From Aquificota bacterium (GTDB lineage: Bacteria; Aquificota; Aquificia; Aquificales; Aquificaceae): a stretch of DNA of 64,000 nt. The translations under genes and the position numbers were made by a program. A model generated the notes under the pieces. That model was not told the origin of the DNA. It did not search any database and saw only the letters and a list, made by a program, of their open reading frames with translations. Below are positions 29,395 to 62,587 of the stretch, in pieces; the stretch's first letter is position 1, and every line of letters starts with the position of its first letter. The stretch is from assembly GCA_018771605.1 (NCBI GenBank), contig CP076324.1, positions 992,001 to 1,056,000 on the forward strand, written 5' to 3'.

Positions 29395-30924
29395 TTACTC
29401 CCATTCTATGGTAGCTGGTGGTTTTGAAGATATATCATAAACCACTCTGTTTATACCCTCTACCTCGTTTATTATCCTCCTCATTACATGGTCAAGGAAC
29501 TCGTAGGGAAGCCTTGACCAATCTGCGGTCATTCCATCTGTACTGTCCACAGCCCTTAGGCCTACAACCCTTTCGTAGGTCCTCACATCTCCCATAACAC
29601 CTACGCTTTTTACTGGCAGAAGAACAGCAAAGGCCTGCCAGACCTTATCATAAAGCCCCCATCTTTTTAGCTCTTCTATAAATATGCTGTCCGCTTCTCT
29701 GAGTATTTCAAGGTCCTCCCTTTTTACCTCTCCCAATATCCTTATGGCAAGACCAGGTCCAGGGAAGGGATGCCTCCTTAGTATGCCCTCTGGCACTCCA
29801 AGAATTTTTCCCACTTGCCTTACCTCATCCTTGAAAAGTTCTCTCAAGGGTTCAAGAAGCCTTAAGTTCATCCTCTCTGGCAAACCACCTACGTTGTGAT
29901 GGGTCTTTATCACCTTTGCGCCTGGAATGCCCGCACTTTCCACCACATCGGGGTAAAGGGTGCCTTGAAGAAGATAATGGGCATCCACCTTCTTGGCTTC
30001 CTCCTCAAAAACCTCAATAAAGGTATGTCCTATTATTCTTCTCTTCTCCTCTGGGTCCTCCACACCCTTTAACCTTTCTAAAAACAGATCCTCTGCATCC
30101 ACCCTTTTAAAAGGCAAGCCCATATCTCTAAAGTAGCCTTCTACCTCCTCCACCTCACCCTTTCTCAAAAGCCCATGGTTTACAAATATGCAGTGTAACT
30201 GTTCTCCAATGGCCTTATATGTTAACAAGGCGGATACGGTAGAATCCACACCACCAGAAAGGGCGCATATAACCCTTTTGGGCCCCACCTCTTGTCTTAT
30301 TTCCTCCACCTTTTCCTTTACAAAATCCCCCATCCTCCAGTTTTCTTCGGCGTGGCTTACCTCAAAAAGGAAGTTTCTTATTATCTCCTTACCATATTGG
30401 GTATGGGCCACTTCTGGGTGAAACTGTACTCCGTAGATAGGCTTTTCTCTGTATCTTATAACGGCGTAGGGAGAGTTTTCTGTATTGGCAAGGCTTTCAA
30501 AGCCTTCTGGCAATCTTACCGCCTTGTCCGCATGGCTCATCCACACATCAAATTCCTGGGGCAAGCCTTTGAAGATTGGGTCTTCTTTGAGGACCTTTAG
30601 CCTTGCCCTACCGTACTCCTGCCTTTGGGACCTCTCCACAGTTCCACCAAGCTGATGCACTATAGCCTGAAGGCCATAGCATATGCCAAGTATGGGAAGT
30701 CCCAAAGTGTATATACTTGGGTCTGGTAAAGGGGCATCCTCTTCATACACAGAGGCGGGTCCACCGGAGAAGATAAGGCAATATGGGTCTTTTTCCCTTA
30801 TCTCTTCTGGGGTTATATAATAAGGCACTATTTCACTGTATACACCAAGCTCTCTTACCCTTCTTGCTATAAGCTGTACATACTGAGAGCCAAAGTTTAA
30901 GATTAAAGCAGGCCTCTTAACCAC
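29395..30924 (-). CDS. guaA: GMP synthase (glutamine-hydrolysing)
   Basis: The 509-residue enzyme aminates XMP to GMP. The class I glutaminase domain has GICYGLQ and GVQFHPEV, the ATP-pyrophosphatase domain has [12 protein letters not shown] and the C-terminal dimerization domain ends [11 protein letters not shown]. The start is GTG at 30924, with TATAAT 8 nt upstream and no ribosome site. It is the first gene of a tight minus-strand array of eight genes down to 22050. A short mobile element abuts its promoter. Confidence 0.96.
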
Positions 30925-30932
30925 TTTTAATA

Positions 30933-30938
30933 ATTATA
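30933..30938 (-). promoter_or_regulatory. guaA -10 hexamer
   Basis: TATAAT on the minus strand, 8 nt before the GTG start and only 4 nt from the end of the mobile element at 30943. The -35 region, if any, would lie inside that element. Confidence 0.5.
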
Positions 30939-30942
30939 CTAT

Positions 30943-31115
30943 ACGTCGGGTGAGAAATTCATCCTTTGTAGTGGCAGGTTTTAAACCTGCCAGATTATAA
31001 AACATCGGGCGGGCCAAAGACCCGCCCCTACATTGTTTGTCTCATTTATTTTTAACAAAAGGTATGATGGCATCCAGTTGTTTAATTAATTTCTCATTCC
31101 ACGTTCGCCCGGCGT
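30943..31115 (+). mobile_element. Short non-autonomous element (MITE-like), copy A
   Basis: The left end ACGTCGGGTGAGAAATT (30943-30959) differs by a base or two from each end of the IS at 51473-52438. The right end (31088-31115) is the inverted copy split by an 11-base insertion. Inside are two palindromes preceded by GTAG: one on the plus strand (GTAG at 30968, arms GGCAGGTTT/AAACCTGCC at 30973-30991) and one on the minus strand (GTAG at 31031-31028, arms GGGCGGG/CCCGCCC at 31007-31027). The right half matches the inverted element at 62393-62564. No coding potential is seen. Confidence 0.7.
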
Positions 31116-31121
31116 TATAAT
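31116..31121 (+). promoter_or_regulatory. -10 hexamer of the TonB-like gene
   Basis: TATAAT starts one base after the right end of the short element and ends 8 nt before the ATG at 31130, with no Shine-Dalgarno site. Confidence 0.5.
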
Positions 31122-31129
31122 TCAAAATT

Positions 31130-31825
31130 ATGGAAAGTAAAATGGAGGGCTTACTACACTTTGCTGTGTCTTTGGTTCTAAATCTAATTTTATTTACACT
31201 TCTTTCCATATACCTTTTTATAAAAGTGGATACGCCACCAAAACCACCATTACAGGTATATTTGGAGGATATACCAAGGATAGAGGAAGTAAGGCTGGTA
31301 CGTGAAAGGCCATCGGTTGGCCAAAGACCTAAGGAAGGTGAAGGAACTTTAAAGAAAGGAAGGGAGAAGATAAGCGCATCACCTATGCAGGTTGATAGAG
31401 ATAGGGGAGATGTGCAGGTGCCAAAGGGTATACCAAAGGAAGAACCCTCCTTGCTTCAGGATATAGAACAGAGGATAAAAGGAAAGCAAAAGGAAGTGAA
31501 AGAAGAAGGCATAAGGACCTCCGAGCTTGGTGATATAGTGGCTGTTGTCTCTCCAAGCGGTATAGGTCTTTCTGGAAGTGGAAGGTCTGCGGTCTATATT
31601 CCACCGTTGCCCAAAGTGGTTTCAGATGAGCCTTTGAGCGTGCTTAAAATAAGGATATGGGTGGAGCCTTCTGGGATGGTATCAAAGGCTCAGATAGTTC
31701 AGAGGAGTGGATCTCCTCGGGTAGACCAGATGATGCTTAACTTTGTAAAAGGTATTAAATTTGAGCCTATAAAGGATAATATTGTTCAAACGGGTATAAT
31801 AACCTTTAGGTTTAAAGGAGGTTAG
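31130..31825 (+). CDS. TonB-like energy transducer
   Basis: The 231-residue protein has one N-terminal membrane segment (about 8-30), a charged linker of about 110 residues and a TonB C-terminal domain (LSVLKIRIWVEPSGMVSKAQ, SGSPRVDQMMLNFVKGIKFEP, GIITFRF). TonB links the proton-driven ExbBD motor to outer-membrane receptors. The linker lacks the usual Pro-Lys/Pro-Glu repeats, so it could instead be a TonB-domain protein of other use. No exbBD lies nearby. A second ATG 12 nt downstream is possible. The next gene starts 2 nt after the stop. Confidence 0.75.
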   Translation: MESKMEGLLHFAVSLVLNLILFTLLSIYLFIKVDTPPKPPLQVYLEDIPRIEEVRLVRERPSVGQRPKEGEGTLKKGREKISASPMQVDRDRGDVQVPKGIPKEEPSLLQDIEQRIKGKQKEVKEEGIRTSELGDIVAVVSPSGIGLSGSGRSAVYIPPLPKVVSDEPLSVLKIRIWVEPSGMVSKAQIVQRSGSPRVDQMMLNFVKGIKFEPIKDNIVQTGIITFRFKGG

Positions 31826-50333: not shown

Positions 50334-51447
50334 GAACCTCCCTCAATATCTCCACAGCCTCATCTACATGCCTCTCTTCTATTATGAGAGGTGGGACAAA
50401 CCTCAAGACCCTTTCTGAAGTGCAGTTTATCACAAGGCCCCTCTCAAGGGCTTTTTGAACTATTTGAGAACAGTCTCTTTCTAATTCAAGGCCAAGCATA
50501 AGGCCCTTCCCCCTTACCTTTCCAACCTTTAGCTCTTCAAGCTTCCTTTTAAAGTAGCTTCCTACCCTTTCTACTTGAACCAAGAGTTTTTTTACCCTCC
50601 TTACCACCACCTTGGCGCTTGTGCAGGCAAGAGGATTTCCCCCAAAGGTGGAGCCGTGAGAACCCGGCCCAAAGGCATCTGCCACCTCATCCCTTGCCAA
50701 GATGGCACCTATAGGCACACCGCCACCAAGGCCTTTGGCAAGGGTTATAATGTCTGGCTCTATATTGTAATGCTGGCAGGCGTAGAACTTTCCAGTCCTT
50801 CCTATGCCCGTTTGCACCTCATCCACTATCAAAAGTAATCCTTCCCTTCTGCAAAGCTCTTGAATCTTTTGCATAAATTCAAAGTCTGCCTCCCTTATGC
50901 CACCCTCACCTTGAATTACCTCAAGCATTATGCCAGCCGTATCCTTTTTTAAGGCTTTTAGCACAGAGTCAAAGTTGTTTAGCTCTGCATAGTCAAAGCC
51001 GTCCAAAAGAGGCTCAAAGCCCCTTTGTATCTTCTCTTGGGCTGTGGCCGACATGGATCCAAAGGTCCTCCCATGAAAGGAGTTATAAAAGGTGATTATC
51101 CTATACCTTTTTTCTCCCCTTTCATAAAAAAATTTTCTTACAAGCTTTATGGCACCTTCGTTGGCTTCCGCTCCGCTGTTGCAAAAAAAGACTTTCCCAG
51201 AAGTCCAAAACTCCTCCACAAGCTCCTTTGCAAGCTCCTCCTGCCACGGGTTTTCAAAGAGGTTGGAGATGTGCAAAAGCTCTTTTGCTTGATTGCATAT
51301 AGCTTGTGTTAGCTCTGGGTCCTTGTAGCCAAGGGCGTTTACCGCAATGCCCGCAAGCATATCAAGATATCTTTTCCCCTTATCATCATAAAGATAAACA
51401 CCTTCTCCTCTTACAAACCTAACGGGAAGCCTTTTGTATGTGTTCAT
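50320..51447 (-). CDS. argD: Acetylornithine aminotransferase
   Basis: The 375-residue PLP enzyme of arginine synthesis shows FVRGEGVYLYDDKGKRYLDMLAGIAVNALG, NSGAEANEGAIKLVRK, FHGRTFGSMSATAQ, DEVQTGIGRTGKFYA and the PLP-Lys in ITLAKGLGGGVPIGA. I chose MNTYKRLPVRF at 51447 over an ATG 9 nt upstream because TATAAT at 51463-51458 leaves only 1 nt before that earlier ATG. An insertion sequence sits 26 nt upstream and its target duplication covers the start region. Confidence 0.93.
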   Translation of the reverse strand: MNTYKRLPVRFVRGEGVYLYDDKGKRYLDMLAGIAVNALGYKDPELTQAICNQAKELLHISNLFENPWQEELAKELVEEFWTSGKVFFCNSGAEANEGAIKLVRKFFYERGEKRYRIITFYNSFHGRTFGSMSATAQEKIQRGFEPLLDGFDYAELNNFDSVLKALKKDTAGIMLEVIQGEGGIREADFEFMQKIQELCRREGLLLIVDEVQTGIGRTGKFYACQHYNIEPDIITLAKGLGGGVPIGAILARDEVADAFGPGSHGSTFGGNPLACTSAKVVVRRVKKLLVQVERVGSYFKRKLEELKVGKVRGKGLMLGLELERDCSQIVQKALERGLVINCTSERVLRFVPPLIIEERHVDEAVEILREVLTQA

Positions 51448-51472
51448 AAGGTGCATGATTATAGTTTATCAT
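51446..51472. repeat. Target duplication, left copy (27 bp)
   Basis: Identical base for base with 52439-52465 and directly abutting the IS ends. It includes the TATAAT -10 of argD and the start-codon region. Confidence 0.9.
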
Positions 51473-51529
51473 ACGCCGAGTGAGAAATTCCCTTTAAGCT
51501 AAACCTTCCATATCAATAAAAAGACAGCA

Positions 51530-51550
51530 GGGCTACTATAATAGTAGCCC
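51530..51550 (+). promoter_or_regulatory. Hairpin ahead of the transposase start
   Basis: GGGCTACTAT and ATAGTAGCCC are perfect inverted arms around a single A. It lies 12 nt before the GGAGG ribosome site. It may attenuate or block translation from read-through transcripts. Confidence 0.65.
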
Positions 51551-51574
51551 TAAAAATCATCGGAGGTTTTTATC

Positions 51575-52423
51575 ATGGAAATTATACCACCTTACCTACG
51601 CATCTACCAACAAATCCTAAAAGACCTTGAAAATGCCTTGCCATTCCTTAATGTGCCAAAACCAAAAGCAGGCAGAAAGCCTAAACTCACAGACATCCAT
51701 ATAGCAGCCATCTTTATACTCTCCTACATAACCAATACAAAAGTCCTCACCTTAGCTAAACTACTTATTGACCCATCCATACAATCATGGCATATCTTCA
51801 GAAGATACAGACTCAAGAGAGTATACAGGATATTGAGAGAATACAAGCTTTATAGATTGAAGCTTATGATTTTAGCAAGGCTTTTGTATGGTAAGAAGAT
51901 AGAACTTGTAATAGATGGAACCATAGTGGACATAGCCAATGTAAACAGGGCGAGGACACAGAAGATAAGGAGGGTAAGAGGGAAGGTATGGTGGGCAAAG
52001 AGGAGAAGGAAGATAGTTCGGAGAGACAATGGGAAGGTAGTGGAGTTTGAGGAGGTCAGGTATGGCATGTTGATGATGGTGTTATGTGATAGGTGGGGAA
52101 GAGTTTATGATGTGTGGATAAGCTTTGGAAGTGTGCATGAGGTTAGGGCATTTAGGGAAAGGAAGAGAAGGAGTTTATGGTTTAGGAAGCTTGTGGAGAG
52201 TTGTGTGGTGTATGGAGATAGGGGTTATAGGGGTTGTGAAGGTGTGATTGTGTGTGGTAGTAGGGAGATGAGGGCAAAAAGGCAGGTAGTGGAAGGTGTT
52301 ATAAGTCAGATAAAGCTTTTTAATGCTGGTAGTGGGTGGAGGACTTTAACTTGTGTGCTTGTGTATGTATATGCTTATGCTATTGGATATAGCTATTATA
52401 GGAGGGGTGAACTTGAGGTCTAA
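51575..52423 (+). CDS. IS transposase (DDE type)
   Basis: The 282-residue protein has an N-terminal helical DNA-binding region (KAGRKPKLTDIHIAAIFILSY) and a DDE core: Asp114 in LVIDGTIVDIA, Asp215 in VYGDRGYRGC and Glu240 in RQVVEGVISQIKLFNAGSG. An Arg/Lys-rich insertion lies at 125-150. A GGAGG site is 8 nt before the ATG. Base skew changes along the gene: the first 240 nt are G-poor and C-rich, the last 350 nt G-rich and C-poor. Confidence 0.9.
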   Translation: MEIIPPYLRIYQQILKDLENALPFLNVPKPKAGRKPKLTDIHIAAIFILSYITNTKVLTLAKLLIDPSIQSWHIFRRYRLKRVYRILREYKLYRLKLMILARLLYGKKIELVIDGTIVDIANVNRARTQKIRRVRGKVWWAKRRRKIVRRDNGKVVEFEEVRYGMLMMVLCDRWGRVYDVWISFGSVHEVRAFRERKRRSLWFRKLVESCVVYGDRGYRGCEGVIVCGSREMRAKRQVVEGVISQIKLFNAGSGWRTLTCVLVYVYAYAIGYSYYRRGELEV

Positions 52424-52438
52424 TTTCTCACCCGGCGT

Positions 52439-52465
52439 ATAAGGTGCATGATTATAGTTTATCAT
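52439..52465. repeat. Target duplication, right copy (27 bp)
   Basis: Perfect direct copy of 51446-51472, on the far side of the insertion sequence. It holds a spare argD -10 region and start codons that now precede the IS rather than argD. Confidence 0.9.
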
Positions 52466-52500: not shown

Positions 52501-52794
52501 TTAAACATAAACAACCTCGCTCAATATGTAGCTTTTAAGTCTGGGTTTAATGGCTTTTATTACAAGGTCTACCTTTATTCCAAATAAGTCTTCAAGGTAA
52601 AACTTTAAATCCATATAATTGTCAAAGTTTTTTTTGCCTTCTTCAAACTCCACAAGCACGTCCAAATCACTCTCTTTACTTTCCTCACTCCTTACATAGG
52701 AACCAAAAATACCTATCTCTCTAACGCCAAACCTGTTTCTAATTTCATCAAGATGACTGGATAGAATTTCTTTTATCTCTTCAAAGTGTCTCAT
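52501..52794 (-). CDS. MNT-type nucleotidyltransferase (antitoxin-like), orphan
   Basis: A 97-residue minimal nucleotidyltransferase with GSYVRSEESKESDLDVLVEF near residues 30-50, giving the GSxxR and DxD motifs, and VDLVIKAIKP for the third acidic residue. MNT proteins usually pair with HEPN toxins, which they neutralise by AMPylation. No HEPN gene is next to it; the downstream side is 35 nt and then the IS. GGGGTG precedes ATG 52794; a GTG 9 nt upstream is possible. Confidence 0.78.
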   Translation of the reverse strand: MRHFEEIKEILSSHLDEIRNRFGVREIGIFGSYVRSEESKESDLDVLVEFEEGKKNFDNYMDLKFYLEDLFGIKVDLVIKAIKPRLKSYILSEVVYV

Positions 52795-52818
52795 GGCACT
52801 CACCCCATAATAGTAATT

Positions 52819-62392: not shown

Positions 62393-62564
62393 ACGCCGGG
62401 TGAGAAATTAATTAGGAAGCTGGGATACCATCATACCTTCTTGCTAAAAATAAATGAGACAAGAAATGTAGAAGCACGGCATGCCGTGCAACTACTAATA
62501 AAAAATCCAAAAGTAGTGGCGGGTCTTGAACCCGCCTGATGTTTTATAATTTGGCAGGTTTAAA
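62393..62564 (-). mobile_element. Short non-autonomous element (MITE-like), copy B
   Basis: The end ACGCCGGGTGAGAAATT (62393-62409) matches the IS end. The inside is the inverted counterpart of copy A at 30943-31115 over much of its length. It contains a perfect 16-base palindrome GCACGGCATGCCGTGC (62474-62489) preceded by GTAG, and a second GTAG hairpin with arms GGCGGGT/ACCCGCC (62518-62536). The other terminal repeat is missing. The 9-base ATAGGCGAA occurs at both flanks (62381-62389, 62565-62573) and may be a target duplication. Confidence 0.65.
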
Positions 62565-62587
62565 ATAGGCGAAAGAGTTGCAACACA

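Follow-up and report, generated by a model that had tools for sequence, protein, structure and literature searches.

Between the divergent guaA gene and a TonB_C-domain gene of an Aquificota bacterium lies a short element in which two hairpins, each tagged with GTAG on its own strand, face each other between IS-type ends, and the locus raises the question of which transposition system moves such an element, a RAYT-dependent REP system, a DDE transposase or both. The window, that is, the whole stretch of DNA that was analyzed, comprises 64,000 nucleotides (positions 992001-1056000) of a genome consisting of a single contig of 1,722,082 bp; positions below are those of the window unless genome coordinates are stated. 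Copy counts were obtained by whole-genome searches, and direct reading covered the stretches around the matches. The element, MITE copy 1 (30943-31115), is assigned to the minus strand by its TGAGACAA arm. Its left terminal inverted repeat is ACGTCGGGTGAGAAATT (30943-30959, plus strand), and on direct reading the second terminal inverted repeat (31088-31115, minus strand) is split by an 11-bp insertion and reads AATTTCTCA, TTCCACGTTCG and CCCGGCGT in succession. The first GTAG and its hairpin, GGCAGGTTTTAAACCTGCC, occupy 30968-30991 of the plus strand (genome 1022968-1022991; GTAG at 30968-30971), and the head-to-head partner GGGCGGGTCTTTGGCCCGCC occupies 31008-31031 of the minus strand, which in the plus-strand view appears as the hairpin GGGCGGGCCAAAGACCCGCCC with CTAC at 31028-31031. 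The conserved MITE core AAATAAATGAGACAA follows at 31037-31051 (minus strand). The letters and coordinates of the original prediction for this element, namely, the ends, the GTAG at 30968 and the minus-strand GTAG at 31031-31028, proved right when re-read directly. The folding of MITE copy 1 gave z-scores of -5.6 and -5.1 on the two strands, which none of 200 shuffles equaled.

A TATAAT motif is located on either side of MITE copy 1, one at 30933-30938 on the minus strand, 8 nt upstream of the GTG start of guaA (30924), and one at 31117-31122 on the plus strand, 7 nt upstream of the ATG of the TonB-like gene (31130). Because a promoter scan of 30500-31500 returned no sigma-70 promoter pair, the term "-10-like" is used here for the TATAAT motif alone. 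No target duplication was recognizable at MITE copy 1, the search of the window against Rfam returned two tRNAs only, and the plasmid database contained nothing matching the element or the transposase described below. The second element predicted in the window, with two further GTAG hairpins, was likewise confirmed. MITE copy 2 (62393-62565, plus strand) retains the left end, the arm and a three-hairpin cargo, of which the palindrome GTAG-AA-GCACGGCATGCCGTGC-AA-CTAC (62468-62495, plus strand) and the GTAG hairpin GGCGGGTCTTGAACCCGCC (62513-62536, plus strand) are complete, with GTAG at 62468 and 62513; half of a third hairpin is also present, the right end having been deleted inside it. ATAGGCGAA is found on either side of the break of MITE copy 2 (62553-62575) and looks like a remnant of a target duplication.

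The genome-wide distribution established that these elements belong to a large family. DNA of the first element gave 78 matches across the genome, and the 17-bp end ACGCCGGGTGAGAAATT, allowing up to three mismatches, was found at 109 sites versus 2 for the reversed control. The number of MITE copies, intact and degraded, is roughly 40-50, and a generic GTAG-hairpin pattern gave 30 matches (control, 0), which speaks against chance as the source of either window element. The 17-bp ends of the MITEs are common to an autonomous IS of 966 bp, of which there are about 21 near-full copies encoding a 282-aa protein that is 96-100% identical among copies. In the window, this IS occupies 51473-52438 (plus strand), and its gene (51575-52423, plus strand) encodes the 282-aa transposase with a predicted DDE/RNase-H fold and a distant likeness to IS982. 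As expected of MITEs, the short elements share their ends with an autonomous IS, lack coding capacity and occur in multiple copies, and the DDE transposase encoded by that IS probably mobilizes them in trans.

Several features were also observed beside IS copies. A small nucleotidyltransferase-domain ORF (NTP_transf_2, MNT-like; 52501-52803) directly adjoins the IS copy of the window. At genome 160009-180442, the 27-bp repeat ATGAGTTATATGTATAAGCCTTTATAC is present at the outer sides, and only there, of two identically oriented IS copies, and the 20.4 kb between these copies appear as if they formed a composite transposon or had arrived by IS recombination. At genome 428699-428769, 71 bp adjoining an IS copy match, in reverse complement, the flank of a distant IS copy (left of 1286538).

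The identity of the transposase was addressed by structure prediction and profile searches. The predicted structure (mean pLDDT 77) aligned best, in the VIA realignment, with the Tn5 transposase (Z 12.1, 224 residues), and further DDE transposases as well as retroviral integrases came next in the structural ranking; with Foldseek by itself, the model had no significant match (none at E <= 0.001; E > 0.1). A DDE/RNase-H fold is thus predicted for the protein. IS982 was the only transposase family model of NCBIfam to respond (E 1.6e-6), with a score of 27.9 bits that lies far under the curated cut-off of 130; Pfam returned no meaningful family, and a PDB sequence search with the transposase alignment returned nothing. 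Members of the IS982 family are 845-1282 bp long, encode transposases of 208-326 aa and have ends of the form AC(N)6T(N)5TT (PMC7335449). The element is similar in its length of about 1 kb (966 bp), its single transposase of approximately 280-300 aa (282 aa), its DDE chemistry and its ends, AC-GCCGGG-T-GAGAA-ATT, which begin with 5'-AC and have T at position 9, with a deviation at position 15. The IS982 review (PMC7335449) does not mention Aquificota, and its family table gives target duplications of 2-10 bp, in contrast to the 23-32 bp found here.

The long target duplications, which like the autonomous IS did not figure in the original prediction, are a property of the IS and the MITEs alike. 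At the IS copy of the window, 27 bp, ATAAGGTGCATGATTATAGTTTATCAT, are exactly duplicated on its left (51446-51472, plus strand) and right (52439-52465, plus strand). Direct repeats near the junctions were found at 21 of 43 IS/MITE copies as opposed to 1 of 2000 mismatched flank pairs, and a recognizable duplication is absent at half of the 43. The repeats are 18-38 bp long (median 24), mostly 23-29 bp. In this same genome, those of the MITEs (18-29 bp) resemble those of the IS (19-38 bp, exact in 14 IS copies). Similar duplications were found in two relatives. G038, which belongs to another family of the order and has a transposase 49% identical, contains exact duplications of 27 and 32 bp, and G036 contains a 24-bp duplication as well as two MITEs with near-repeats of 27 and 32 bp. 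Long duplications are also mentioned for IS1182, a different element (PMC7335449), and the long-TSD subgroup of the IS1202 family shares the property of unusually long target duplications, at 16-28 bp (PMC10132070). In contrast, its well-described members are about 1.5 kb long with a Tn7 TnsB-like transposase of 441-457 aa and ends in 5'-TGT, and no conserved target was found for the long-TSD group (PMC10132070), unlike the target described below. Membership in IS1202 is ruled out by the length of 966 bp, the 282-aa transposase and the ends in 5'-ACG. The literature searched on long duplications at promoters and on Aquificales MITEs, which excluded subscription journals and ISfinder, contained no description of the element.

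In an alignment of 42 outer ends, C occupies position -1 in 30, the next base is A in 32 and the one after it is T in 37, and the target consensus, as read from these flanks, is the dyad-symmetric C/AT...AT/G (slashes, junctions). At 11 of the 42 ends (10 of 21 sites), the boundary coincides exactly with the start codon of a frame that is open over at least 80 aa, compared with a mean count of 0.24 at other offsets. When conditioned on ATG, 11 of 23 end ATGs open a frame versus 26 of 211 nearby (Fisher p = 1.3e-4). A perfect TATAAT lies inside 9 of the 21 duplications versus 3.0 expected (p = 0.003). The duplicate thus often reaches from a -10-like box into the start codon, of which it includes two letters, and the neighboring gene keeps its core promoter. 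Insertion therefore appears, from these flanking sequences, to tend to copy the core promoter rather than destroy it, and this promoter sparing would be the reason that the insertions are tolerated. The placement could equally be the product of selection, with insertion occurring at any C/AT...AT/G dyad and the harmless events surviving, and the chances of this explanation are about even. The consensus itself ends in AT/G, by which some ends become start codons, and insertions within genes would be purged. The excess of frame-opening ATGs over the nearby ones speaks against this explanation, but selection would also yield such an excess.

The GTAG hairpins are bound to the MITEs. As predicted, they occur in inverted pairs enclosed by DDE-type ends, and they do so in many copies. 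For 29 of the 30 matches, a MITE core or end is no more than 115 nt away; the exception, at genome 720665, reads like 23S rRNA and recurs nearly unchanged in relatives. Independent dispersed units were thus not found, all 29 non-rRNA matches being inside MITEs, and in 40 relatives the pattern occurs near control level. The cargo occupies a fixed position within the MITE, with TGAGACAA(nCAAT) on one side and (A)AAGGATGAATTTCTC on the other, and its stems comprise GGCAGG/GGCGGG pairs, a third palindrome, GCACGGC, and GGCACGC/GGCACGG pairs. By a loose count that includes degraded copies, 25 of 49 have GTAG; CTAC was seen in 20 of 27. Two copies, at genome 1556897 and 1240522, both degraded, are hairpin-free. 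The less diverged MITE arms mostly accompany the GGCAGG/GGCGGG or GCACGGC kinds. Most GGCACGC copies, like the two without hairpins, have more diverged arms, and the comparison thus suggests that the cargo was gained and then exchanged; possibly, the hairpin-free copies instead lost their cargo by deletion. G036 has the same ends around a different hairpin pair, GATTCTTCGCTTCGCTCAGAATGAC and its partner, so paired palindromes would have entered MITEs of this IS group on two occasions or more. The GATTCTTCGCTTCGCTCAGAATGAC hairpin is present in 95 copies in G036, and among 30 of these examined, 8 lie between two recognizable ends, 8 have one end and the rest have none.

The origin of the cargo is indicated by an exact 23-mer, GTAGNGGCACGCTGATGCGTGCC, which also occurs in other genomes, in six stretches from Gammaproteobacteria, Planctomycetes, Chloroflexi and Gloeobacterales. 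In a gammaproteobacterial MAG, it stands directly before the gene of a 188-aa RAYT, which matched the NCBIfam REP-associated tyrosine transposase model with E 3.4e-20 and 72 bits, just missing the cut-off of 80 bits, and in a planctomycete MAG, it is part of a head-to-head dimer of the same kind. Since an identical copy of the 23-mer adjoins a RAYT gene in a different phylum, the hairpin cargo is probably REP-like in origin, and its presence in the MITE may be explained by capture. The hairpins could instead be home-grown parts of the MITE, such as transcription terminators or RNA stabilizers, that are REP-like in looks only, with GTAG...CTAC as the outer part of a long palindrome. Such an origin would accord with the GTAG/CTAC pair within one palindrome, GTAGAAGCACGGCATGCCGTGCAACTAC, in several copies and with the confinement of the hairpins to MITEs, and the different paired hairpin in MITEs of the related genome may mean that a pair is useful whatever its sequence. 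It is nevertheless considered unlikely in view of the exact 23-mer in unrelated phyla, beside a RAYT gene or in REP arrays, and of the tag common to four distinct GTAG stems.

As in the GTAG REPs and REPINs known with RAYTs (PMC3733652, PMC3116915), the tag lies 5' of a short GC-rich hairpin and the hairpins form head-to-head dimers. They differ in that no RAYT was found in this genome or in 14 genomes of the genus and no copies were found outside the DDE MITE; the main text of the survey of GTAG sequences does not mention Aquificota. GTAG-15 of Anabaena variabilis (PMC3733652) resembles the present case in having REP dimers within a longer palindrome of constant sequence. That palindrome is tied to no named IS, whereas the MITE enclosing the hairpins here is partnered by a full-length IS and shows target duplications.

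An active REP/RAYT system, which would spread GTAG dimers with the DDE MITE as one landing site among others, would explain the GTAG tags, the head-to-head pairing and the hairpin-free MITE copies, all of which resemble REPIN insertion, as well as the RAYT gene flanked elsewhere by the identical 23-mer. Against it, neither a RAYT nor another Y1 transposase was detectable in the genome itself, no RAYT was found in 14 genomes of the genus, and across this genome, 40 relatives and 136 genomes of the phylum, nothing scored above the RAYT cut-off, the yield of the Y1 search being IS200-sized or partial proteins and one odd match inside a 1408-aa frame. The restriction of every detected non-rRNA GTAG hairpin to DDE MITEs and the near-control level in relatives also count against this system, which is largely refuted and very improbable. 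Two loci of the Y1 search are of separate note: the match in the 1408-aa open frame (G066:C1:292172-292477, same family) is RAYT-like with E 2.8e-18, and an IS200-like Y1 gene at G006:C1:750300-751956 is in two parts about 1.3 kb apart, possibly split by an insertion. Since no RAYT/Y1 gene was found, the hairpins have the appearance of captured REP dimers for which the DDE element is now the sole means of movement. The idea of a live, RAYT-moved REP family is consequently not supported. The proposed mix of two transposition systems stands for the REP-like cargo in DDE ends and fails for the RAYT, which weakens it to a single DDE system with a REP dimer, fossil or captured, as its passenger.

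The element is a DDE MITE with REP cargo, of an IS982-like group with atypically long duplications. In all likelihood, it is mobilized by the DDE transposase of the IS, carries a captured REP dimer and inserts with a stagger of about 23-28 bp at promoter dyads. According to the proposed mechanism, a REP dimer with GTAG tags (REPIN-like: GTAG-hairpin...hairpin-CTAC) would have entered an ancestral MITE at a single internal site, and the DDE system would then have amplified this composite as well as derivatives whose hairpin pair had later been replaced by other GTAG hairpins. Without a REP transposase, the hairpins would be passengers or, at most, structural or RNA modules. At C/AT...AT/G dyads in AT-rich promoter DNA, the transposase may join the element to the target strands with a stagger of about 23-28 bp, and repair of the gap across the staggered stretch would yield the duplication. 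The duplicate would often run through a -10-like box to the AT of ATG, leaving the neighboring gene with a core promoter and start codon. More tentatively, with odds somewhat below even, the elements may represent an unrecognized IS982-like group that inserts with a stagger of 23-32 bp at promoter and start-codon dyads, rebuilds the promoter on insertion and has MITEs that repeatedly capture and spread REP-like pairs without a REP transposase; "promoter-sparing" transposition could serve as the name for such promoter-rebuilding insertion.

The long duplications pose the structural question of how target strands at a distance of 23-28 bp are held by so small a DDE transposase, and the elements offer a testable case of limiting harm through duplication of a whole core promoter. 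REP-type palindromes can be inherited and amplified without a RAYT by riding a DDE MITE, and such carriage complicates the rule that REPs imply a RAYT and provides a route for the spread or exchange of REPs.
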